Assembly (NCBI GenBank): GCA_943788005.1
Contig: CALSOP010000002.1
Coordinates: 526,573 to 590,572, forward strand
Length of the DNA: 64,000 nt
Source: an uncultured Gammaproteobacteria bacterium
GTDB taxonomy: Bacteria > Pseudomonadota > Gammaproteobacteria > Eutrophobiales > Eutrophobiaceae
Reading direction: 5' to 3'
The notes under the pieces are model-generated. The model made no database searches. It had not been told where the DNA came from and saw only the letters and a program-made list of their open reading frames with translations. Below, piece by piece: positions 4,522-24,396 of this stretch (positions are counted from its first letter, which is position 1; each line of letters opens with the position of its first letter). The translations under genes and the position numbers were made by a program.

Positions 4522-5604
4522 TTAAGCAATTACTATCGTGCTTAGCTTTGATAAAAATAGTTCATTTTCTTCAGGTGAGCCAACTGTTACGCGCAAACAA
4601 TTTTCAAGCAGTGGGTGCCCACCATGCAGATTTTTAATAAGAATATTTTGTTTAATTAACTCTTTGTGCACCTTGTCTGCTCCGGGATTAGAAACACGAA
4701 ACAGAATAAAATTAGCTTCACTCTTCCATGCTTCAACACCAGCTATTTTTGACAGCCTGTCAAACAAACCTTCCCTATCATCGCGAATACATTTTGCTTG
4801 CTGTTCAAGCAAACTTATATTTTGAATTATAAAATTTGCACTTAGCTGATTTAACGTGCCGATATTGTATGGCAATCTCAATTTGTCTAATTCGGTGATC
4901 CATTCTCTGGCGCCAAACAACATACCTAAACGTAAACCAGCCAATCCCAGTTTGGACAAGGTTCGCATTAATAAAACATTAGGGTATTTGTGCAAGCAAG
5001 ACATCATGCTTTTCTGTGCAAAGGCATGGTAGGCCTCATCAATTACAACAAGCCCCGGCGCGGCTTTTATAATCTCTTCTAACGAATCTTTTTCAAAGGC
5101 ATTTCCTGTTGGATTATTTGGCCAGGCAATAAAAATTACAGCAGGCTTTGTCTTTGTTATTGACTCCAACATTGCAGGAAGATTAAGAGTAAAGTCTTTG
5201 TTTAATGGCACCCCAACAAAATCGAGTTCCATCATCGAACTTAACAAACGGTACATAACAAAGCTAGGTTCGGGAGCCATGACGACATTCGATGTTTTAT
5301 TAAGTGCCATCAATATGATCTGAATGAGCTCATCAGATCCATTGCCAAACATCATCGCAGTCTCATCGGGTAAGTTTAAAGTCTGGGTAAGTTTGTTTCT
5401 TAGTTCACTTACACTTGCATCCGGATAACGATTAAGTTCGGCTTGTTGTAGTTGCTTAGACCATTCGGCCTTGATCTCTTCAGGCCAGCTATACGGGTTT
5501 TCCATCGCATCCAGTTTAATAAGCCCACCGGAATCTGGGACATGATAGGCCTTTGCTGCAAGGATAGCGGGTTTAATGATCTTGCTTACGCGATCGTCAA
5601 TCAT
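4522..5604 (-). CDS. hisC: Histidinol-phosphate aminotransferase
   Basis: 360 residues, class I/II PLP-dependent fold. It makes histidinol phosphate from imidazole-acetol phosphate. Visible motifs are FGNGSDELI, the WPNNPTGN motif (about 161-168), the VVIDEAYHAFA aspartate/tyrosine stretch, and the PLP lysine K218 in TLSKLGLAGLRLG. It is the last gene of hisG-hisD-hisC and converges with the protease gene, their stops only 4 bases apart. Confidence 0.95.
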   Translation of the reverse strand: MIDDRVSKIIKPAILAAKAYHVPDSGGLIKLDAMENPYSWPEEIKAEWSKQLQQAELNRYPDASVSELRNKLTQTLNLPDETAMMFGNGSDELIQIILMALNKTSNVVMAPEPSFVMYRLLSSMMELDFVGVPLNKDFTLNLPAMLESITKTKPAVIFIAWPNNPTGNAFEKDSLEEIIKAAPGLVVIDEAYHAFAQKSMMSCLHKYPNVLLMRTLSKLGLAGLRLGMLFGAREWITELDKLRLPYNIGTLNQLSANFIIQNISLLEQQAKCIRDDREGLFDRLSKIAGVEAWKSEANFILFRVSNPGADKVHKELIKQNILIKNLHGGHPLLENCLRVTVGSPEENELFLSKLSTIVIA

Positions 5605-5617
5605 ACTGGCAATCTAA

Positions 5618-6913
5618 TTATTTTGAATTAAGTCGGAACTCTGCTGATCGCGCATGTGCCGTAAGACCTTCTCCACGCGCCAAAGCAGATGCTGTTTCAG
5701 CAATCTCTTTAACTGAAGCACTATTGCACTTGATGATGGATGATTGTTTTTGAAAATCATAGACACCAAGCGGTGAAGAAAATCGAGCGGTGCGAGCCGT
5801 AGGTAGAACATGGTTTGGTCCTGCACAATAATCCCCAAGTGATTCTGCAGAATAATGCCCCATAAAGATTGCGCCGGCATGCCGAATATCGCCCAAAAGT
5901 GCATCGGGATCAGAAACCGCTAATTCAAGATGTTCTGGTGCGATGATATTAACAATCTCTATTGCTTGTTTTAGATCGTCTACTTTAATCATCGCCCCGT
6001 TATTTGATAATGATGCCTTTATAATCTCGGCACGTTCCATTTCGGGCAAGAGTCTTTCGATACTTTTCTCAACTGCTTCAATAAAGTCTTCATCTGGCGT
6101 AATCAGTATTGAGCTGGCTTCTTCATCGTGCTCTGCTTGGGCAAAAAGATCCATGGCCACCCAGTCTGGGTTAGCACTGCTATCACTAACAATCACAACT
6201 TCTGACGGGCCGGCTATCATGTCGATACCAACAACACCAAACACTTGTCGTTTAGCTGTAGCAACATAAATGTTGCCAGGGCCAACTATCTTATCCACCT
6301 TTGGGACAAGTTTAGTACCGTAGGCCAGTGCGGCGACGGCTTGTGCACCACCAATTGAAAACACCTTATGTACTCCGGCAATAGCAGCGGCTGCCAAAAC
6401 CAAATCATTACGTTCGTCATCAGGGGTTGGCACAACCATAATTATTTCTTCGACGCCAGCAACATGCGCCGGTATGACATTCATTAATACAGATGAGGGA
6501 TAAGCGGCCTTACCACCGGGAACATAAACACCAACGCGATCCAGCGGCGTAACCTTTTGACCCAACACATTGCCGGCATCGTCTTCGTAGGTCCAAGTCG
6601 TTTGCCGTTGCTTGTCGTGAAATTCACGAACACGCTTGGCTGCATGCTCAAGATTTTTACGCAGTGTTTCTGGAATACGTTCTAATGCGGATTCTAAATC
6701 TTGTTGCGAGATTTCAAGCGATTCGATACAGGCAGAACGTCTGTCAAAACGATTAGTATATTCGAGCAAAGCTTCGTCGCCTCGCGCACGCACATCGGCA
6801 ATAATTTGAGAGACTGTATCTAGGACAGATTTATCCGGCTCATCACTGGAAGATAATAATGACTTTAGTGACGAATCAAATCCTTCTGAATTTATATCGA
6901 GGTGTTTGATCAT
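5618..6913 (-). CDS. hisD: Histidinol dehydrogenase
   Basis: 431 residues, full length for the family. It oxidises L-histidinol to L-histidine in two NAD-dependent steps using a catalytic zinc. Recognisable blocks are [36 protein letters not shown] and the zinc/catalytic region AEHDE, then APEHLEL and [13 protein letters not shown]. It overlaps the hisG stop by 4 bases (ATGA), so the two are translationally coupled. Confidence 0.97.
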
Positions 6914-7551
6914 GACCCATTATTTTCAACAATGTCTGACAGTTGAGTGATGATGGGCTTTATAAGAGCATTCTTCATCTTCATTGCTGCCTTATTGACG
7001 ATCAACCTTGAGCTTATATCAGCAATATGATCTAAGGTGACTAGGCCATTTGCTTTTAAAGTATTCCCGGTATCGACCAAATCGACGATCCAATCTGACA
7101 AACCTAAAACTGGCCCCAGCTCCATCGATCCATACAGCTTGATTATTTCCACTTGTTGTCCACGATCTGCAAAATAATTGCGTGTGATATTGGTATATTT
7201 TGTAACAACTCGTGGGCGATCAGTTACCGGTTTGGCATCTTTCAAACCGGCTAACATCATTCGGCACTTGGCTATCCCCAAATCAACCGGCTCATAAAGA
7301 CTATCACCAGAGTATTCCATTAATACATCTTTGCCTGCAATGCCCAATTCTGCAGCACCACGTTCGACATAGGTTGGCACATCGGTAGCTCGTATAATTA
7401 GAATTTTAATATTGGCCTGATTAGTATCAAGAATCAATTTGCGTGATTTATTAGGATCATCTATCAGGACAATACCGAGCTTGGCGAGTAGAGGAACCGC
7501 TTCATCGTATATTCGGCCTTTGGAAACGGCGATAGTGATCTTGTCCGACAT
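6910..7551 (-). CDS. hisG: ATP phosphoribosyltransferase, short form
   Basis: 213 residues; first step of histidine synthesis, joining ATP and PRPP. The protein has [14 protein letters not shown] at the start and the PRPP-binding stretch [18 protein letters not shown] near residue 150. It lacks the C-terminal regulatory domain of the long (about 300 aa) form. Short HisG enzymes normally need HisZ as a partner; no hisZ is in this window. First gene of hisGDC, 137 bases after murA, which may share its transcript. Confidence 0.95.
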
Positions 7552-7688
7552 AATTATATTTCTAGCTTAGTTAATTGTTTGGCTTCGTAAAAATAAAGCA
7601 GAATACAATAGAAACAAGTTAACTGAAAAAGTTTCCTCGCATATTCTAAATTTAAATAACTTACTTAGGGCACCTTAGATAGTGCACA

Positions 7689-8960
<1,272 letters not shown>

Positions 8961-8993
8961 TTACCTTAATAATATAAGCTTGGGCACCCAAGA

Positions 8994-9233
8994 CTATTTC
9001 TGTTGTTCCCATTCATCCGGGCTGTATGTCTGCATGGATAAAGCATGGATATCGGTACCCATTTTATCGCCCAGTGTCTTATAAACCATCTGATGTTGCT
9101 GAACCATGTTTTTCCCAGAGAATGATTCACTGATTATACGCGCCTGAAAATGCGTACCATCATCACCTTCTACAATGATGTCAGCATCTGGCAATCCGGC
9201 TTCGATAAGTTGTTTGATAATTTGAGGATTCAT
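8994..9233 (-). CDS. ibaG: BolA-family protein IbaG
   Basis: 79 residues, one BolA domain: an N-terminal helix (IIKQLIEAGLPDADIIVEGDD), then FQARIISESFSGKNMVQQHQMVY with the conserved His, and the C-terminal GTDIHALSMQTYSP. BolA proteins pair with monothiol glutaredoxins to handle [2Fe-2S] clusters. Placement directly upstream of murA and the short length favour IbaG (YrbA) over BolA itself. Confidence 0.9.
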   Translation of the reverse strand: MNPQIIKQLIEAGLPDADIIVEGDDGTHFQARIISESFSGKNMVQQHQMVYKTLGDKMGTDIHALSMQTYSPDEWEQQK

Positions 9234-9281
9234 AAAGTTTTCGATTGTTATTTATTGATGAAAATTGGATTCTATAAAGCA

Positions 9282-9306
9282 AGCAACCGGGCATTGCCCG
9301 GTTGCT
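9282..9306 (-). terminator. Rho-independent terminator after mlaC-like gene
   Basis: AGCAACCGGGC (9282-9292) and GCCCGGTTGCT (9296-9306) form a perfect 11-bp GC-rich stem with a 3-base loop. On the minus strand it is followed by TTTATAG. It lies 25 bases after the MlaC-like stop and before ibaG. Confidence 0.85.
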
Positions 9307-9330
9307 CGAAAATCAAGTATACATTGCTGG

Positions 9331-9954
9331 TTATTTTGTAAGGCTACTAGCTAACCGTTCGTTTTTGATAGTGAGTTCATTGATAAGTGAATCAAATCCG
9401 TGTTTTTTAATTTGCGTAGAAAATGACCCTCGGTAAGTAGAGACTAAACTGACACCATCGACAGAGACATCAACCACTTTCCATGCATCATCCGTTTGAT
9501 GCATGCGGTAGGCCACCGGGAAAGGCTGTGCGCCATCACTTGTCATCTCAGTTTTAACTAGGGCAAGTTTTGATTTTGCACTCATTTCCACTGGAAAGTA
9601 TTTAATTTCCTGACCAGAGTATTCAAGCAAGGCTCGGGCATAAGTACGTACTAATAATGTTTGAAACTGTGCGATAAAATCACTGCGCTGTGTTTCACTT
9701 GCGCTTTTCCAGTTTTTACCGAGTACCCATTTAGACATACTAGTGAAATCATAATGAGGTATGACAAGTTCATTCACCACATCATAAATTTTTGATGGGT
9801 CAGCATCCAATTCAGAACGCTGAGACTGAATGCGTTCAATAACAGCATCTGCAGTTTGTTTCACGACTGCATCGGGGGTTTCCATCGCTGCCTGAGCAAC
9901 GCCGGCGACCATGCATAGAATCAAAATCAACGAATTTACGACTCTGGATTTCAT
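9331..9954 (-). CDS. MlaC/Ttg2D-family periplasmic phospholipid carrier
   Basis: 207 residues with a signal peptide (SLILILCMVAGVAQAAM) and the Ttg2/MlaC fold: TADAVIERI, YDFTSMSKWVLGKNWKSAS, FQTLLVRTYARALLEYSGQ and KVVDVSVDGVSLVSTYR. These soluble carriers shuttle phospholipids between outer- and inner-membrane complexes. mlaF, mlaE, mlaD and mlaB, usually adjacent, are absent here; the next gene upstream is an RND exporter instead. That makes an HpnM-like role alongside an RND partner a real alternative to canonical MlaC. Confidence 0.88.
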   Translation of the reverse strand: MKSRVVNSLILILCMVAGVAQAAMETPDAVVKQTADAVIERIQSQRSELDADPSKIYDVVNELVIPHYDFTSMSKWVLGKNWKSASETQRSDFIAQFQTLLVRTYARALLEYSGQEIKYFPVEMSAKSKLALVKTEMTSDGAQPFPVAYRMHQTDDAWKVVDVSVDGVSLVSTYRGSFSTQIKKHGFDSLINELTIKNERLASSLTK

Positions 9955-10214
9955 TGTAATACCTCTAAATGTTTATAATTAATCGACCCACCTTAGGGCT
10001 TAATAGTTCAAACAACCTGTTTTTTTATCTGCGATTCAGCAGTAGTTATTATTAGTCTTTGGTCATTCGGAGGCGGTTATTGTAATAACAATATATATCG
10101 ATAGATAGTATTTATTCTTAATGAATATTTTTATAACTGGATAAGCATAAAAAACTTATAAACTCATTATTCAACTTTACAAGAATAGTGTAAGACATTG
10201 TTTATTAATATTTT

Positions 10215-12686
10215 TTAATTAAACGGCTTTAGTATTAAGATTAATTTTGGTAATAGTGTCAAGCATGCAAACAGTGCAATAAACATAGCTAGCGCCGTCA
10301 AAAGCCCAAAATAGATCGTCGGAATAAAGTTTGAAAGCACCAATATCGAGAACCCAATGATAATAGTAATCGCAGTATAAAAAACGGCCTTGCCAATGTT
10401 GGCATGACAGTAATGCATTGTTTTGACGTAATCACCTGTCTTTGGCAGCTCTTCACGGAATCGATAGATGTAATGGATGCTATTATCAACCGCAATACCA
10501 ATCGTGATAGCTGCAATGGTTATTGTCATCATGTCGAGCGGTATCCTGAGCAAACCCATTAAGCCCAGAATAATCGCAGCAGCAAGTATGTTCGGAATAA
10601 TGCCTATTATTGCGAGCGTCACGGAACGAAATAAGATAACCAGCATTAATGCAATTCCAGCCATAACGACGCCTAAGGTTAATATTTGTGACTTAAATAA
10701 ACTCTGCAGCATATTATTATAGAGAACTAGTATGCCTGTGATTTGCACCTTATCTTCAGCTAGCCCGATCTTTTCAATCAAGTCGGTCTTAATCTGTTCC
10801 AACAACTCTTTGCGTCTTAAATCCTTTAACGAATCCAATATGCGGATACTGATCCGTGCTTCATTAGTCGCTTCAGAGACATAAGGCGTAATCATGCTTT
10901 CCTTAATCTCATCTGGCATATTTTTACTAACAATAGCTAGTTCAAATGCGTCAAACTCGCCCCCATTAATTTCTTCTCCTACACGAATGATCGACGCAAG
11001 TGATAAGACCTTACCAATCGCCGGAAAAGTCTCCAGATGATCATGTACCTGCTTGATCGTGTCTATTCGTTCGGGTGTAAACCATATGTCATCCTGGCCC
11101 TCAGTAAAGGCACCAAACAAGGCATCAAAATCTTCAAACTCACCCTCTTCTGAAGAGTCATCTTCTTCCGGTTCATCTTCAAGATTAATAATAATATCCA
11201 TAGGGGTAGTTCCACCCATCTTCTCATCGATTAAACGCAGACCCTTATAGATTTCAGTACTATCGCTGAAATAATTTATAAAACTATTTTCCACTTCAAG
11301 ACGGGTAATACCATAGGTACTAACGGCAGCAAGAATAACGGTGCTTATTAATATTTTATTGCCGTGTATTTCCGTCATGCTTGCAAGCTTGGAAGTAAAT
11401 TGGAACTCATCTTTTGAACCGGGTTTTTCTGTACCCTTGGCTAACATGCCTAATATAGAGGGGAATAAAATAAATGATGTCAGGAAAGTCACACTTAAAC
11501 CTATCGTCATCATCCAGCCAAAATCTATAATTGGTTTAATGCCGCTAACCACTAATGAGCTAAAAGCCATAATGGTAGTCAACGCGGTATACAGACAAGG
11601 CCATACCATCTTGCTCGCCATGGATAATACAAGTTCGTGTTGTGATAACTCAGGATGATCGTTGAGCAATTGTCGATAACGAACGATGAGATGCACGTTC
11701 ATAGACATTGTGATGATCAACATCAAGGAAATGAAATTTGATGAGATAACGGTGACATTCCAACCGACCAGACTAAGTAGACCAATCATTAGCAGTCCAG
11801 CATAAAAACAACTTAGTAAAGGCAGCATGACCCACCTGAGTTTACGAAAGATAATTGACAACATGCCAACAAGAAACAGAAACACACCGACACCAAAGAC
11901 TATCAGATCATTTTTAATATAAGTGATCATGTCATCAGTAATCATGGTGACACCACCCATATGCAATGTGCCATATTGTTGATATTTTGAAATTATTTCT
12001 CTTACATCAACGATATTGTCATGGTTAACTTTATCGATAACATTTTTCTGTGCTGTATATTCAATTAGTATCTCATCCAGTCGTACTTGTTCTGCCTCAT
12101 CAAGACCTTCACTATTAGCTTTTATTAGAAGTTGGTTACGCTCACGTTGTAAGTCACGAAACTCAGGATTGTCTTTCAAATTAACCTGGATTGCAGTTGT
12201 TTGGCCGTCTTCACTAATTATTAATTCTCTATAGATAGGACTACTGAGTAACTCTTGTCTAACCTTGTCTATATCAAGACCACCACCTTCTATAGTACGA
12301 ACGTTATCGGCCACATCGGACAATGTTCCCTCTACCTGCCTAACCAATGGCACATCAACTAAGCTGATTACTGAATCAACCGGCTCTAGAGATCTGAATT
12401 CATCACGAATATTTGTAATCGCATCCAATGAAGATTGAGAAAGAAGATCTTCCTTTGGTGAAAAAGTAACAAACAGAAAGTCTTTAGTGGCATAACGCTC
12501 TAGTGTTTCACGAAATAACTTTAGATCTTTATCATCTTCCAACAACAAGGAGTCTGCCGACGCATCAAGTTTGAAGTCCTTTGTTTGCATGGCAAAAAAA
12601 CCAAGTAATATTGCCATCAATAAACAAACCAGCACGGGTTGTTTTAATATAAAAGATGAATATGCCGATTTAATTAAAGTAATCAT
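10215..12686 (-). CDS. RND superfamily (MMPL-type) exporter
   Basis: 823 residues with about twelve membrane segments in two repeats, each with one helix, a large periplasmic loop, then five helices. N-terminal helix about 16-30; second-half cluster near 640-810 with the motif MTITIAAITIGIAVDNSIHYIYRFREE, the family's D-bearing helix 10-like region. A strongly acidic stretch (EDEPEEDDSSEEGEFEDFD) lies in the second loop. This class exports lipids or hydrophobic molecules; HpnN is a relative. The 260-base gap to the MlaC-like gene (9955-10214) is AT-rich, with no ORF seen, and probably holds that gene's promoter. Confidence 0.85.
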   Translation of the reverse strand: MITLIKSAYSSFILKQPVLVCLLMAILLGFFAMQTKDFKLDASADSLLLEDDKDLKLFRETLERYATKDFLFVTFSPKEDLLSQSSLDAITNIRDEFRSLEPVDSVISLVDVPLVRQVEGTLSDVADNVRTIEGGGLDIDKVRQELLSSPIYRELIISEDGQTTAIQVNLKDNPEFRDLQRERNQLLIKANSEGLDEAEQVRLDEILIEYTAQKNVIDKVNHDNIVDVREIISKYQQYGTLHMGGVTMITDDMITYIKNDLIVFGVGVFLFLVGMLSIIFRKLRWVMLPLLSCFYAGLLMIGLLSLVGWNVTVISSNFISLMLIITMSMNVHLIVRYRQLLNDHPELSQHELVLSMASKMVWPCLYTALTTIMAFSSLVVSGIKPIIDFGWMMTIGLSVTFLTSFILFPSILGMLAKGTEKPGSKDEFQFTSKLASMTEIHGNKILISTVILAAVSTYGITRLEVENSFINYFSDSTEIYKGLRLIDEKMGGTTPMDIIINLEDEPEEDDSSEEGEFEDFDALFGAFTEGQDDIWFTPERIDTIKQVHDHLETFPAIGKVLSLASIIRVGEEINGGEFDAFELAIVSKNMPDEIKESMITPYVSEATNEARISIRILDSLKDLRRKELLEQIKTDLIEKIGLAEDKVQITGILVLYNNMLQSLFKSQILTLGVVMAGIALMLVILFRSVTLAIIGIIPNILAAAIILGLMGLLRIPLDMMTITIAAITIGIAVDNSIHYIYRFREELPKTGDYVKTMHYCHANIGKAVFYTAITIIIGFSILVLSNFIPTIYFGLLTALAMFIALFACLTLLPKLILILKPFN

Positions 12687-12721
12687 GTGGGTAGCGTTTA
12701 TTTTTATTTTAAAGATAGTTG

Positions 12722-12765
12722 AAAGCTGATTAACTTTGGGGCATCCCTTCAGTTTGATCAGCTTT
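12722..12765. terminator. Imperfect long hairpin after gloA
   Basis: AAAGCTGAT (12722-12730) pairs with ATCAGCTTT (12757-12765); the interior can pair further (AACT/AGTT, GGG/CCC). The better T-run is on the plus strand (TTTTTATTTT), yet the neighbouring genes are on the minus strand, so orientation is uncertain. Confidence 0.4.
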
Positions 12766-12776
12766 TTATTTTATTA

Positions 12777-13166
12777 TTAGAAGTCTTCCAGTAGCTCTAT
12801 CTTATAACCATCAGGATCTTCAACAAAAGCAATAACCGTATCACCACCTTGCATAGGTCCCGCTTCTCTAACAACATTACCACCCAATTCTTTAATCTTG
12901 TCGCATGTCTTATAAACATCATCAACACCGATTGCAATATGTCCATATGCATTACCCAGATCATAGGATTCTGTTCCCCAGTTATGGGTGAGTTCCAGTA
13001 CAGTAGTTTCAGATTCATCGCCGTAACCAAGGTAGGCTAATGAGAATTCGTACTCTGGATAATCGTGCTTGCGTATTAGTTTCATTCCAAGTACATCTTG
13101 ATAAAACTGTAAAGACTTTTCAAGATTCCCAATTCTCAACATTGTGTGCAACATACGCATATTCAA
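12777..13166 (-). CDS. gloA: Lactoylglutathione lyase (glyoxalase I)
   Basis: 129 residues, single vicinal-oxygen-chelate fold. It converts the methylglyoxal-glutathione hemithioacetal to S-lactoylglutathione. The four metal ligands align with the bacterial Ni-type enzyme at a constant offset: H7 (MLHTML), E58 (VLELTHN), H76 (YGHIAIG) and E124 (YKIELLE). It is 14 bases downstream of purN on the same strand. Confidence 0.95.
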
Positions 13167-13180
13167 ATCTCCCCTTGTCC

Positions 13181-13783
13181 TTAATCAGAAGGCAATATAA
13201 TACTGCCATCTACTATTTTTTGTATTGTTTCTGCAAATAAAACATGTTCGACCTTTAAAACCTTGGCTGCCAGTGACTCTGATGTCTCATTCGGCGCAAT
13301 AGAAACAGTTTGCTGTGCCAGAATTGCGCCTTGATCGTATTCTCCATCAACCAGATGGATAGTTACACCAGACTCTTTCTCACCAGCGGCAAGCACAGCC
13401 CGATGAACATTAATTCCAAACATCCCCTTTCCACCAAACTTTGGCAACAAAGAAGGATGAATATTAATGATCCTGCCTCTATAACTTGATAGTACTTTAG
13501 GGCCAATTTTTTTCATATATCCGGCTAATAAGACAAGATCAATATGATGTTTGTTTAATGCATCCGTCATTGCCATATCCAATGCATCAGGGTCGGGATA
13601 GTTGCTTGAACCTATATGAGCTGTTTTAATATTTTTTTCTTGTGCTGAAACCAGCGCTAATGAATCCTTATTATTGCTGATTACAAGCTCAACACTGGCT
13701 GATAAGTCACCCTGTTCACAAGCGTCTGCTATAGCTACCATATTGCTGCCACGTCCGGAAACTAAAATGCCAAGCTTCTTCAT
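13181..13783 (-). CDS. purN: Phosphoribosylglycinamide formyltransferase
   Basis: 200 residues. It transfers a formyl group from 10-formyl-THF to GAR in purine synthesis. Motifs visible are [11 protein letters not shown] at the N-terminus, the catalytic [13 protein letters not shown] (Asn and His) and the [14 protein letters not shown] region with the catalytic Asp. It overlaps pdxB by 4 bases (ATGA). The usual partner purM is not adjacent. Confidence 0.96.
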
Positions 13784-14925
13784 GCTGCTCCTGTATTAAA
13801 TCCCAATTCTAACAAGCATTGTTTCATTGCATTATTCAAATTTTTTGTATTAATTTGCTTGTTTGTAAACTCTCGTCTTATTGGATAGTTCTTTCTTAAG
13901 CTATCAAAATAGACACCGCGTTCCCCGCTTGGCATATTTAATAGTTCTTTAAGTGCAATGGCATCACTTCTGATGTCATATGTCTGCATCACGGCTAATT
14001 GAACCGCAGTATCATCATTATACTCAATAGCGTCTGTCACCGCTTCAGGCGTTAAAATTTGAGCCATTGCAGACATGCTTCCGGTCTCTGTCAGCAAAGC
14101 CTCGGCAAGAATTCTAGTCGCCTTAAGTTTGCCATCATAACTATATCCTGCAATATGCGGTGTCCCGATAAAGGTCTGTTGTAATAAGTTGATATTGATT
14201 TCTGGCTCACTACACCATACATCGAGGATCAATGTCGACTCTGGATTTGTTTCTTTAAATACTGATAAAGCAGATTCATCAACCACTTCTCCACGTGATG
14301 TGTTAATCAATACCACATCCGGTTTTAATCTATCTAGAAATGATTTATCTACTAGCCTGCTAGTTGGATATTTGCCAGCTGTTGTTAGCGGCACGTGTAA
14401 TGTAATAATATCCGCTTCCAAAACCCGCTCAAGTGCAACAAATGATTCCGTTGATCCTTGTTCAGCTAATGGAGGGTCGTTTAGAAGGCATTGCACGCCT
14501 AGCGACTCCAAAAAACGTTTCAACCTTGAGCCCACCTGACCACAGCCAATGATGCCCACGGTTTTTTTAGTTAAATCGAAATTATTAAATTCAGCCGTTG
14601 CGAGCAAACTACTCAAGACATATTCGGCAACAGAACGCGCGTTGCTACCTGGGGCGTGGACAAAACTGATATTGGATTTTTTAAGATAGTCGGTATCAAT
14701 ATGGTCAATACCACTTGTGGCAGAGCCGACAAAACCAATTTTGGAATTCTTTAAAAGAGATTCATCAACCGGTGTCACCGATCTTACTAATAATACATCG
14801 GCGTTCTTGACGGCAGCTTCATCGATAGAGCGTCCATCAACTAGTTCGACATCGCCAAATCTAGAGAACGTCTCCTCAGCAAGGAGTATTTGTCGATCAG
14901 CAACAATGGATAGTGGTTGAGACAC
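13780..14925 (-). CDS. pdxB: Erythronate-4-phosphate dehydrogenase
   Basis: 381 residues, D-2-hydroxyacid dehydrogenase family, second step of DXP-dependent pyridoxal phosphate synthesis. Visible are the GFVGSATSGIDHIDTDYL substrate-domain stretch, the Rossmann motif VGIIGCGQVGSRL, the INTSRGEVVDE catalytic-Arg block and the C-terminal dimerisation domain typical of PdxB (…YPIRREFTN…), which general hydroxyacid dehydrogenases lack. Confidence 0.94.
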   Translation of the reverse strand: MSQPLSIVADRQILLAEETFSRFGDVELVDGRSIDEAAVKNADVLLVRSVTPVDESLLKNSKIGFVGSATSGIDHIDTDYLKKSNISFVHAPGSNARSVAEYVLSSLLATAEFNNFDLTKKTVGIIGCGQVGSRLKRFLESLGVQCLLNDPPLAEQGSTESFVALERVLEADIITLHVPLTTAGKYPTSRLVDKSFLDRLKPDVVLINTSRGEVVDESALSVFKETNPESTLILDVWCSEPEININLLQQTFIGTPHIAGYSYDGKLKATRILAEALLTETGSMSAMAQILTPEAVTDAIEYNDDTAVQLAVMQTYDIRSDAIALKELLNMPSGERGVYFDSLRKNYPIRREFTNKQINTKNLNNAMKQCLLELGFNTGAA

Positions 14926-18074: not shown

Positions 18075-18401
18075 TTAAAGGGTTTTGAGGGTGCCTTTTG
18101 GCAGAACAACAGAGACCGACTGTTTTTGTACCTTAACATCTGTGCCTTCTGCAATCTCGACCAAAAGGAAATTATCACCAACCTCTTTTATTTTTCCGAG
18201 TATGCCGCCATTTGTGGCGATCTCATCACCCTTGGCTAAGGCTGAAACTAGCGCCTTGTGCTGTTTTGCCTGTTTTAGCTGGGGGCGTATAAGAAAAAAG
18301 TAAAAAACAGCAAATAATATAATTAGCGGCAGAAAGCTGGCCAAACCAGGTTCCTGTGAAGCGGGCGCTGCCCATGCATTACTGACGAAGAAATCCAACA
18401 T
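18075..18401 (-). CDS. yajC: Sec translocon accessory protein YajC
   Basis: 108 residues with one membrane helix (PLIILFAVFYFFLIRPQ) followed by the conserved KQHKALVSALAKGDEIATNGG stretch and a basic, soluble tail. It belongs to the SecDF-YajC complex. The 113-base gap between it and the upstream unknown gene is unusual only in that tgt would normally sit here. Confidence 0.96.
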   Translation of the reverse strand: MLDFFVSNAWAAPASQEPGLASFLPLIILFAVFYFFLIRPQLKQAKQHKALVSALAKGDEIATNGGILGKIKEVGDNFLLVEIAEGTDVKVQKQSVSVVLPKGTLKTL

Positions 18402-18514: not shown

Positions 18515-19432
18515 CTATACCTGCTCCAACATGTCGCTTTCCAGTAATTGCTGAAATGTCGCTTTTATACTCTGTAGCATTTCATCCTGAGCACCGATTT
18601 GTTTGAGCTGTTCTAATATATAGTCGACACTGACTGTGCCATTAACGTGCTGGAATAGAGAGGCAAAGCCTTCGCTAAGCTCGGCTGTTTTCTGGTCAAT
18701 CGTCGGTTCGCATTGCGACATATGACTGACATGAGCACGGGCAATAAATAACCTCGGATCGTCTTTTTCTAATAGTTTCTTTCGAATTGACGCGGCAAGC
18801 GGTTTTTTGTTCAAACTACGCCATAGATCGCATTCTGCATCCGGGCAAAATGATTGTTTTAATTTTTCGTACGATTCAGGAATCATTGCTGCACAGACAT
18901 ACGGTGCGAGTTTGATGTTCTTACTAGACCAACTTTGATCGAGCTGTGTTGATTTATTATGCAGTTGTCCGTTATCCAATACTTCACGCTTTAAGGTTGC
19001 ACTGGTCCAAGCCATACCAAGCTCCGCTTCCAATATGGCAGAGACTTTTGTTTGTTCATCCGCAGATGTAAATGAAAGTGCATTTAAGCTCTCTCCAATG
19101 CGTCTGCCAAATAATGTGGCGCGTTCTATGGACGCTGTCCGCATCGTTAGCACATCAACCAAACTCTTTAATATATCGAGTCCTCCATCAACAGAGGAAA
19201 GGACACTAAAGCTAACGGGAAAGGATCGGCAGAAATGCGACAATAAAAGATCAGCTCGAATCTTTGCATCCAGTTCCAATGCATCTGGTCGAATGGTATT
19301 GAAGTCATTTCGTTCCTCTTCATTTAATTCATATTGATGCAACGCCGCCGTTGTATCTTTACAAAAATTCTCACGCACACTGCTATCGAATAATAAATCG
19401 AATAAGGCACGTTCCTGTTCCTGAAAACTCAT
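18515..19432 (-). CDS. Unrecognised partner of a DUF692/MNIO enzyme
   Basis: 305 residues; I do not recognise the family. The protein appears soluble and mostly helical, with no signal peptide or membrane segment. The N-terminal third has an F..D....L..Y.L...E pattern (ENFCKDTTAALHQYELNEEE) then DALELDAKIRADLLLSHFCRSFP. The C-terminus has TAELSEGFASLFQHVNGTVSVDYILEQL. It starts by a 4-base ATGA overlap with the DUF692 gene. MNIO enzymes commonly work with a peptide-recognition partner encoded next door, so that role is my inference from position only. It does not look like a standard DUF2063 (HvfC/MbnC-type) protein to me. Confidence 0.7.
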   Translation of the reverse strand: MSFQEQERALFDLLFDSSVRENFCKDTTAALHQYELNEEERNDFNTIRPDALELDAKIRADLLLSHFCRSFPVSFSVLSSVDGGLDILKSLVDVLTMRTASIERATLFGRRIGESLNALSFTSADEQTKVSAILEAELGMAWTSATLKREVLDNGQLHNKSTQLDQSWSSKNIKLAPYVCAAMIPESYEKLKQSFCPDAECDLWRSLNKKPLAASIRKKLLEKDDPRLFIARAHVSHMSQCEPTIDQKTAELSEGFASLFQHVNGTVSVDYILEQLKQIGAQDEMLQSIKATFQQLLESDMLEQV

Positions 19433-20334
19433 GCTTCTTTATCCAAACTCATAACGAGTGCTTCACTGCTACTTTTTTCTCGGACGATCTTTCTTATTCT
19501 TTTTAATGTCGCAAGCACGCTATTTTCATTTACACCTTCGCATTCATAACAAACGGCTTTGACATTCGGTAGCCTTGGCAACATGTCTTCTAACATCTGC
19601 CAGGTTTGTTCAACAATTTCACATTCATGCGCATCAACATAAATGGGCCCTGCTTCACCATCCTTATTGCCTTCTTTCAGGCGACCACCGGCAATATGCA
19701 CTTCAATAACACGTTCAACTGGTAATTCATCTATCGCCTCTAGCACACTTCGACCACTTGCCATTTCGTAAGAAACCAAATGCCCCATATCAAGCAAGAT
19801 GGCGCAGTCGGTTTGGTTTGCCAGACTGCCGAAAAAAGAAAATAAGGGCATAGCTCCGATAATAAAGGCAACAGGCGGTGGTTCAATTGCAACCGGTACG
19901 CTAACTTTGGCTTGTACTTCTTTAACACGTTCTACCGCAAGTTCGAGAGAACGTTGATTAAAGATAAGTGGTATGAAATAACCCAATTGCGTCGAATAAC
20001 CTGGACCTTCTTCCCAGAAACAATAGGCGACATCCTGTGCGAACCAGGATGAACCGACTGACTCAATATGTTTGGATGTGGCTTCAAGCCATGCATCGGA
20101 GTTTGAATAAGAACCACAAAAATTAATATAGGAAGGATGAAACAAAACTGGCGCGCCCGCGGCACGAATCTTTTCTACTTCATCAATCACTTCATCAACA
20201 TCGACTAAACCCGAATATTCAACAAAACTCGGACCGCCTTTGGCACGAACTAAGGAAACCGGATCTGGCTTAGAAGACAGACTCAGGCTAGCACCGACAC
20301 CTAATGTGGGAAGTTGTATGAGGTAATTACTCAT
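19429..20334 (-). CDS. DUF692 / MNIO-type multinuclear iron oxidative enzyme, divergent
   Basis: 301 residues with a TIM-barrel-like layout. Landmarks of the family appear in order: GVGASL near residue 12, FHPSYI (H66), the FAQDVAYCFW block (D101 where a His is usual), AIEPPP (E151; usually followed by Asn), LLDMGHLVSYE (D182, H185; usually D.NN), EVHIAGGR (H213), YVDAHE (D234, H236) and CYECEG (E264). Characterised members (MbnB, TglH) bind two or three irons and oxidise peptide cysteines. Here several ligand positions are altered, so the metal site and reaction may differ. No precursor-like short ORF with a Cys-rich tail is visible beside it. Confidence 0.8.
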   Translation of the reverse strand: MSNYLIQLPTLGVGASLSLSSKPDPVSLVRAKGGPSFVEYSGLVDVDEVIDEVEKIRAAGAPVLFHPSYINFCGSYSNSDAWLEATSKHIESVGSSWFAQDVAYCFWEEGPGYSTQLGYFIPLIFNQRSLELAVERVKEVQAKVSVPVAIEPPPVAFIIGAMPLFSFFGSLANQTDCAILLDMGHLVSYEMASGRSVLEAIDELPVERVIEVHIAGGRLKEGNKDGEAGPIYVDAHECEIVEQTWQMLEDMLPRLPNVKAVCYECEGVNENSVLATLKRIRKIVREKSSSEALVMSLDKEA

Positions 20335-20377: not shown

Positions 20378-21505
<1,128 letters not shown>

Positions 21506-22758: not shown

Positions 22759-22843
22759 GCCGGGGTGGCGGAATTGGTAGACGCGCCGGATTCAAAATCC
22801 GGTTTCTTCGGAAGTGCGGGTTCGATTCCCGCCCTCGGCACCA
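22759..22843 (+). tRNA. tRNA-Leu (CAA)
   Basis: The acceptor GCCGGGG pairs with CCTCGGC (one G-T), followed by A and an encoded CCA (22841-22843). The anticodon arm CCGGA-TTCAAAA-TCCGG reads CAA. The long variable arm (TTTCTTCGGAAG region) and GGTTCGATTCC T-loop are normal for leucine tRNA. Confidence 0.96.
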
Positions 22844-23038: not shown

Positions 23039-23401
23039 ATGATGACAAGTAAAAGAAGTGTAGAACATACTGTGCGCGATATTCGTCGACGCACCCGTAA
23101 AAAATATTCAGCAGAAGAAAAAATTCGTATCGTACTTGAAGGCTTACGTGGCGAAGAAAGCATCGCTGAGCTATGTCGCAAGGAAGGACTAAACCCAAAT
23201 GTTTACTACCGTTGGTCGAAAGACTTTCTGGAGGCAGGTAAGAAACGTTTATCAGGCGATATCGTACGTGAAGCGACCTCAGATGAAGTCAAAGAACTGC
23301 GTGCTGAAACATCTGCGCTGAAAGAAACCTTAGGCGAAGTAGTCATGGAGAATCGGCTGCTTAAAAAAAGCGTGCTCGGGGATGGGGAGGACGATATATG
23401 A
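23039..23401 (+). CDS. IS3-family transposase OrfA
   Basis: 120 residues. A helix-turn-helix DNA-binding domain (KYSAEEKIRIVLEGLRGEES…ELCRKEGL…YYRWSKDFLEAG, residues about 21-67) is followed by a leucine-zipper-like coiled coil (KELRAETSALKETLGEVVMENRLLKKSV). It overlaps orfB by 4 bases (ATGA). An A7 run near its 3' end (in CTTAAAAAAAGC) could also support frameshifting to an OrfAB fusion. Confidence 0.93.
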   Translation: MMTSKRSVEHTVRDIRRRTRKKYSAEEKIRIVLEGLRGEESIAELCRKEGLNPNVYYRWSKDFLEAGKKRLSGDIVREATSDEVKELRAETSALKETLGEVVMENRLLKKSVLGDGEDDI

Positions 23402-24396
23402 GGTACTTAGCATCGGATAAAGTCGAGATTATTCAACTGGTACAGAACTCAGATCTGTCGGTTCGACAAACGCTGACTCGGCTGGACATTCATAAGTCCA
23501 CTTTTTACAACTGGCTCAAACGTTATGAAGAGAATGGCGTTGATGGCTTGGAAGACAAGAAGCCGATTCCCCATGCGGTATGGAATAAAATCACCGAAGA
23601 CCACTGTGAAGCCGTTATTGAGTTAGCCTTAGAGAAGCCTGATTTGTCTCCACGAGAGTTAGCCGTAAATTACACTGACAACAAGGCTTACTTCGTCTCA
23701 GAATCCACGGTGTACAGGCTGCTGAAAGAACAAGACTTAATTACCAGTCCGGCCTATATCCTGATGGAGGCCAGTGATAAGTTTCAACAGCCCACTACGC
23801 GCGTGAATGAGATGTGGCAAACGGATTTTACCTATTTCAAGATTATCGGTTGGGGTTGGTATTACTTATCCACGGTATTAGATGATTACTCACGTTACAT
23901 TATTGCCTGGCGTTTATGTACGGGCATGAGTAGCCGTGATGTCTCTGATACGCTGGATGACGCCTTACGCTTTACGGGACTTGATACAGTAAAGGTAAAT
24001 CATAAACCGCGTTTACTCAGTGACAATGGCCCGTGTTATATCTCCGGTGAATTAGCCGATTACCTTGAAGAAAACGGTATGACGCACACTCGAGGTCGAC
24101 CTTATCATCCACAAACACAAGGCAAGATAGAGCGCTGGCATCGTTCAATGAAGAATCAGATATTACTTCACCACTATTATTTCCCCGGGGAACTGGAGGA
24201 ACAGTTGCAGCGTTTTGTGAGTTATTACAACCATGAGCGTTATCATGAATCACTTGATAACCTGACACCGGCTGATGTCTTTTATGGGCGTGGCGAAGAA
24301 ATACTAAGTCAACGAGAGCTAATCAAACAAAACACGTTAGCGATGAGACGACAAATGCATTACGATAAACAACAAGTGAAGCACATAACCTATTGA
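23398..24396 (+). CDS. IS3-family transposase OrfB (rve integrase core)
   Basis: 332 residues. An N-terminal HTH-like region is followed by the retroviral-integrase-type core with D143 (WQTDFTYF), D209 (LLSDNGPCY) and E245 (QGKIERWH); 35 residues separate the last two, the DD(35)E spacing of the IS3 family. No frameshift or stop interrupts it. The stop codon falls at the inner edge of the right inverted repeat. Confidence 0.95.
   Translation: MRYLASDKVEIIQLVQNSDLSVRQTLTRLDIHKSTFYNWLKRYEENGVDGLEDKKPIPHAVWNKITEDHCEAVIELALEKPDLSPRELAVNYTDNKAYFVSESTVYRLLKEQDLITSPAYILMEASDKFQQPTTRVNEMWQTDFTYFKIIGWGWYYLSTVLDDYSRYIIAWRLCTGMSSRDVSDTLDDALRFTGLDTVKVNHKPRLLSDNGPCYISGELADYLEENGMTHTRGRPYHPQTQGKIERWHRSMKNQILLHHYYFPGELEEQLQRFVSYYNHERYHESLDNLTPADVFYGRGEEILSQRELIKQNTLAMRRQMHYDKQQVKHITY

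Follow-up and report, generated by a model that had tools for sequence, protein, structure and literature searches.

The window analysed here is a stretch of 64,000 nucleotides from an uncultured gammaproteobacterium (contig CALSOP010000002.1). An earlier note on this DNA described two overlapping co-directional genes inserted between tgt and yajC, and our ORF analysis confirmed both genes together with the ATGA overlap that joins them (Table 1). We refer to them as A and B. The pair lies on the same strand as its flanks, 43 bp from tgt and 113 bp from yajC, with queA upstream of tgt and with secD, then secF, beyond yajC. A tRNA-Leu(caa) gene (22759-22843) is located between queA and an IS3-like transposase of two ORFs (23039-24396) that lies just upstream of queA.

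The ATGA overlap is consistent with translational coupling of A and B. Comparison with four relatives gave dN/dS values of 0.05-0.09, indicating purifying selection on both genes. Promoter and terminator scans returned counts at chance level, and PADLOC gave no profile match to a defence system.

Table 1. Positions of the gene pair, its flanking genes and a second MNIO locus of the same genome (window coordinates unless a contig is given)
Feature	Position	Strand	Size or content	Basis
Gene A, MNIO (MbnB_TglH_ChrH family) catalytic subunit	19429-20334	-	301 aa	ORF, PF05114
Gene B, predicted MNIO partner protein (PME-type 2)	18515-19432	-	305 aa	ORF, AlphaFold2 model
A/B stop/start overlap	19429-19432	-	ATGA, 4 bases	sequence
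tgt, upstream neighbour (host operon, outside module)	20378-21499	-		ORF
yajC, downstream neighbour (host operon, outside module)	18075-18401	-		ORF
Oxazolin/bufferin-type cluster	contig C1 (G000:C1), L098:1881-5975	-	ECF sigma, anti-sigma, HvfB, DUF2063 partner, DoxX-like protein	several named from sequence

Identity of the two proteins

The earlier note had placed the product of gene A in the DUF692 multinuclear iron oxidase (MNIO) family, and the profile check was positive: A matched PF05114 with 92.4 bits (E 3.6e-26, curated cut-off 25). Its best NCBIfam match was ApyH, with 79 bits at an equivalog cut-off of 400. Since A falls far under every NCBIfam equivalog cut-off, it is a member of the superfamily that belongs to no named subfamily; among 274 genomes, no ApyH orthologue scored above the cut-off. 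We then compared the AlphaFold2 model of A (pLDDT 88.4) with the PDB using Foldseek. The results showed that TglH, 3bww (HS_1138) and MbnB made up the top five matches (TM 0.67-0.79), ahead of other TIM barrels, with an E-value of 1.6e-14 for TglH (8hi7_B). Profile alignments likewise placed A with 3bww, TglH and MbnB. Gene A is therefore an MNIO with the TIM-barrel fold of the family. No phage matches to gene A were found.

The AlphaFold2 model of B (pLDDT 91.8) comprises a helical domain (residues ~1-155) and an RRE-like winged-helix domain (~160-305). VIA-align, whose scores the helical part can inflate, gave Z 13.0 against TglI (8hi7_A; full length, 253 residues aligned, 4.7 A), 12.0 against NGO1945 (3dee), 7.0 against the PbtF RRE (8t19), 6.0 against MbnC and 5.5 for residues 1-63 against Os1348. 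The top three rows of this ranking were all MNIO partners covered in both domains, and the next row was far lower, at 7.1. Foldseek alone ranked 3dee first (E 2.7e-3). Gene B had no Pfam match above cut-off, including the DUF2063 signature, no sequence similarity to the local HvfC and no plasmid matches. Its sequence profile found no relevant match among PDB chains, so the partner identity rests on folds.

A survey of MNIOs describes PME-type 2 partners as proteins encoded right after the MNIO, without the Pfam DUF2063 signature and with an NGO1945/TglI-like structure that includes an RRE-type domain (PMC12452194). B shows all of these features, and judging from its modelled fold it is an MNIO partner of PME-type 2. 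The second gene, which the earlier note had left as an unknown kind, thus encodes a predicted partner of the TglI, NGO1945 and MbnC type with a C-terminal RRE-like domain, rather than a known enzyme with an unrelated pathway of its own. The suggestion that the second protein could recognise a substrate is supported as well.

The N-terminus of B is also homologous to a short protein encoded beside another MNIO (hhalign E 2.1e-6, 106 columns). At that locus (L058:1201-3049), a different MNIO is followed by this 176-aa partner, and the gene before it encodes a membrane protein whose tail is rich in Cys and Gly and looks TIGR04222-like by eye. In one Moraxellaceae MAG (L045:10912-11660), B is split into two ORFs, reflecting a frameshift, a pseudogene or an assembly error.

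Linkage, genomic position and precursor search

We scanned 84,980 genomes with gene A and obtained 31 loci, in nearly all of which B lay directly downstream wherever the contig reached that far. Among 96 relatives, B was present in 21; 20 of these carried an A-type (weak-scoring) MNIO, and the remaining one ended at a contig edge. No A-type MNIO was found in any of the 96 relatives without B. Evolutionary distances of A and B were correlated (r 0.92), and in a broader sample B was rare, with four clear matches in 369 genomes of the class. These results demonstrate that A and B travel as an obligate unit. This strict linkage and the 4-base overlap, which recurs in 18 of 23 pairs of relatives, uphold the coupling proposed in the earlier note. 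The gene following the MNIO of a Planctomycetota locus (L054) has an Os1348-like N-terminus and resembles B over the first 34 residues only (hhalign probability 4%), so that its equivalence to B is unproven.

The order tgt-A-B-yajC was found in the window and at 8 further related loci, and three more loci showed A-B-yajC at contig edges. At two loci (L035 and L037), nothing interrupts queA-tgt-yajC, and A-B is found upstream of queA. The location of the pair thus varies within Gammaproteobacteria, and its neighbours in Moraxellaceae, Methylococcaceae and others are unrelated genes, read from sequence as an amidase, an alcohol dehydrogenase with a TfoX-like gene, UvrC, an ABC transporter and an acyl-CoA synthetase. 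No third gene was conserved beside the pair in ~30 loci. The best explanation is that the slot between tgt and yajC is where the pair happens to have landed in one lineage, and that this slot in itself serves no function.

As the position is lineage-specific, it supports no link to export or tRNA modification, and the link that had been suggested is not supported. It is very unlikely that the pair acts on operon products of queuosine tRNA modification or YajC/SecDF export, or that its target is a translation factor, for example EF-P. Such a role would fit the co-directional placement that some relatives show between tgt and yajC, and also the EF-P and EarP-like genes (named from sequence) divergently upstream of the pair at L044 and L045; against it stand the unrelated neighbours elsewhere, the uninterrupted operon at L035 and L037, and the absence of EarP in 53 of 53 family members searched.

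At L044 (11930-14636), from an Agitococcus MAG, the genes just downstream of the pair encode a predicted lipoprotein of 96 aa, rich in Cys, Met and His, and a P-ATPase of the copper type. We considered these genes as a functional link, found them absent beside other pairs and judged their proximity to be chance. The culturable Agitococcus lubricus DSM 5822 (L049) is a further carrier of the pair.

The search for a precursor gene was also negative. Neither in the window nor at the loci of relatives did we find a conserved or fitting small ORF beside the pair, and the window gaps contain no ORF of at least 15 codons. The pair at L042 shares a 4-base overlap with each of its two neighbours, and the gaps around the pair measure 82 and -8 bases at L029 and 44 and 9 bases at L046. 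With no space for a precursor at these three loci and with ORF-free gaps in the window, a neighbouring precursor is excluded as a general feature; the lack of one near the pair, first remarked in the window, is thus borne out across relatives. Genes for RiPP tailoring, proteolysis or export were not consistently linked to the pair in ~30 loci. Because the pair travels without a substrate gene, its substrate is most likely encoded elsewhere in the genome.

The predicted Asp/His iron site

To map the metal ligands, A was aligned with 3bww, TglH, MbnB and ~30 other MNIOs. The predicted ligands are H66, D101 and E151 at site 1, D182, H213 and E264 at site 2, and H185, D234 and H236 at site 3. All nine positions are filled by metal-competent residues and are unchanged in the aligned A-type proteins. 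This conservation and the dedicated partner of A argue against a non-catalytic MNIO-like protein that would compete for or regulate a partner; such a role has a precedent in the pseudo-MNIO regulator PesX (PMC13060819), and for A we regard it as hardly plausible.

Compared with cysteine-oxidising MNIOs, A shows two coordinated swaps: the second histidine of site 1 is replaced by Asp101, and the asparagine of site 3 by His185. Wherever both positions could be read in another distinct MNIO, the residues were His and Asn, in 26 of 26 proteins (21 and 5 in two alignments, one locus being listed twice in the first). Asp at the second site-1 His position together with LDxxH at site 3 was found in all A-type proteins and at L054, L094 and L095. 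In the tree, the Asp/His proteins fall on one side of a branch with 100/99 support; a caution is that the rows of L094, L095 and L054 are long-branched. The L054 protein is 31% identical to A.

The L094 protein, encoded on a plasmid of Piscinibacter gummiphilus (5317-14913), belongs to a std-like cluster with a carbamoyltransferase-YcaO fusion, TfuA, GNAT and a 57-aa ORF ending in GLSNKARQKPW. The L095 protein, from a plasmid of Streptomyces europaeiscabiei (7480-12131), carries a C-terminal extension and is encoded with YcaO, an acyl-protein synthase, an acyl-CoA reductase and a 53-aa ORF containing four FPFR repeats; this is likely an uncharacterised RiPP cluster.

Published MNIOs allow a comparison of ligands and chemistry. 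PbsC is a Phe ortho-hydroxylase, and its ligands in an AlphaFold3 model are H97-D133-E178, D213-H247-E290 and H216-D260-H262 (PMC12257519); this list shows the same Asp/His pattern and the same LDxxH spacing as A. In the std pathway, StdE catalyses the bis-hydroxylation of homocitrulline (PMC13174530). MNIOs that oxidise cysteine bind the thiolate of their substrate at site 1, which contains two histidines (PMC13419390). We infer that loss of the second site-1 histidine may go with non-thiolate substrates and hydroxylation. ApyH, PesH and PflD oxidise non-Cys residues as well, and the latter two are missing the Fe3 HxD motif (PMC13060819), which A keeps, so the Asp/His pair does not extend to every MNIO with a non-Cys target. 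It appears to mark one hydroxylase group.

The ligand set also bears on a possible role of A-B as a second maturase in the bufferin/oxazolin-type pathway of this genome, with a Cys-rich secreted precursor as substrate. The same genome does encode a complete classical cluster of this type on contig C1, whose precursor (108 aa) has a Sec signal and EGKCG repeats. However, A carries the Asp/His ligands and not the His/Asn of Cys oxidisers, the pair never adjoins such a cluster, and a canonical MNIO is missing from three genomes that carry the pair (G014, G018 and the 100% complete G041). Because A is the only MNIO that G041 encodes, the pair does not depend on bufferin as its substrate, and we consider this role highly improbable.

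Proposed function and comparison with known systems

Our preferred explanation, held with moderate confidence, is that A-B works as a heterodimeric MNIO in trans, on a peptide or protein encoded at an unlinked locus, and that it probably hydroxylates a C-H position of a non-cysteine residue. A and B would form the holoenzyme. The RRE domain of B would dock a recognition stretch of the substrate, and B may assist in building up the active iron cofactor, a role reported for HvfC (PMC13419390). A, as a TIM barrel with a presumed multi-iron site, would then oxidise a substrate residue using O2. Asp101 and His185 group A with hydroxylase-type MNIO clusters, away from the His/Asn cysteine oxidisers, which makes C-H hydroxylation of a non-cysteine residue the likeliest chemistry; this draws on PbsC and, more weakly, on the std-like context.

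The substrate encoded in trans could be a short precursor or a full-size protein, and on precedent we rank the unlinked short precursor higher. A special case of the preferred explanation is a split RiPP pathway, in which a dedicated short precursor lies at an unlinked locus and A-B is a maturase displaced from its cluster. Characterised MNIOs all act on RiPP precursors (PMC12452194), B has an RRE-like domain, and the Asp/His relatives L094 and L095 occur in clusters with short putative precursors. In the ~30 loci, however, no other RiPP enzyme and no precursor accompanies the pair, and this genome encodes no YcaO; we regard the split pathway as possible, at somewhat below even odds. It seems unlikely that A-B has left RiPP biosynthesis altogether and hydroxylates a full-size cellular protein in trans, recognising a segment of that protein via the RRE.

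Among characterised systems, the best fold match for both subunits of A-B is TglHI, the thiaglutamate/pearlin maturase (PDB 8hi7, 8hci), which likewise combines an MNIO with a helical/RRE partner of the TglI type. Unlike A, TglH has His and Asn at the positions of Asp101 and His185, and TglHI operates together with a precursor, its target being a C-terminal Cys. PbsCD, of a biphenomycin-like pathway, shares the nine-ligand Asp/His pattern (by comparison of ligand lists, that of PbsC from the published AlphaFold3 model) and an RRE-containing partner, but it is encoded in a cluster with precursors, an arginase and a B12-radical SAM enzyme, none of which accompanies A-B. StdDE is tentatively linked to A-B through the Asp/His MNIO of the L094 cluster, which groups with A and whose setting is only std-like; StdDE differs in its cluster with YcaO, TfuA, carbamoyltransferase and precursor. 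ApyHI (aminopyruvatide) includes the best NCBIfam match of A, acts on Asp and has an RRE partner, whereas A scores far under the ApyH cut-off and ApyHI is cluster-bound. HvfBC/BufBC with DUF2063 partners (bufferins, oxazolins) belong to the same superfamily and share the partner architecture, and differ from A-B in their His/Asn ligands, Cys substrates and PME-type 1 partner.

Both the MNIO family and the partner type have been described before, and MNIO neighbourhoods that lack a precursor have received brief mention (clusters II and III; PMC12452194). Our search, which covered part of the literature and is weak evidence in this respect, found no description of an obligate, mobile, precursor-free MNIO-partner pair or of the paired Asp/His swap as the mark of a clade. 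MNIOs have mostly been found through precursor genes, and a conserved mobile pair without one indicates that precursor-anchored mining misses a class. The pair is a good candidate for an MNIO that acts on an unlinked peptide or protein, and the Asp/His swap is a simple sequence mark that may help to tell, ahead of any biochemistry, MNIOs that oxidise cysteine from those that hydroxylate a different residue.
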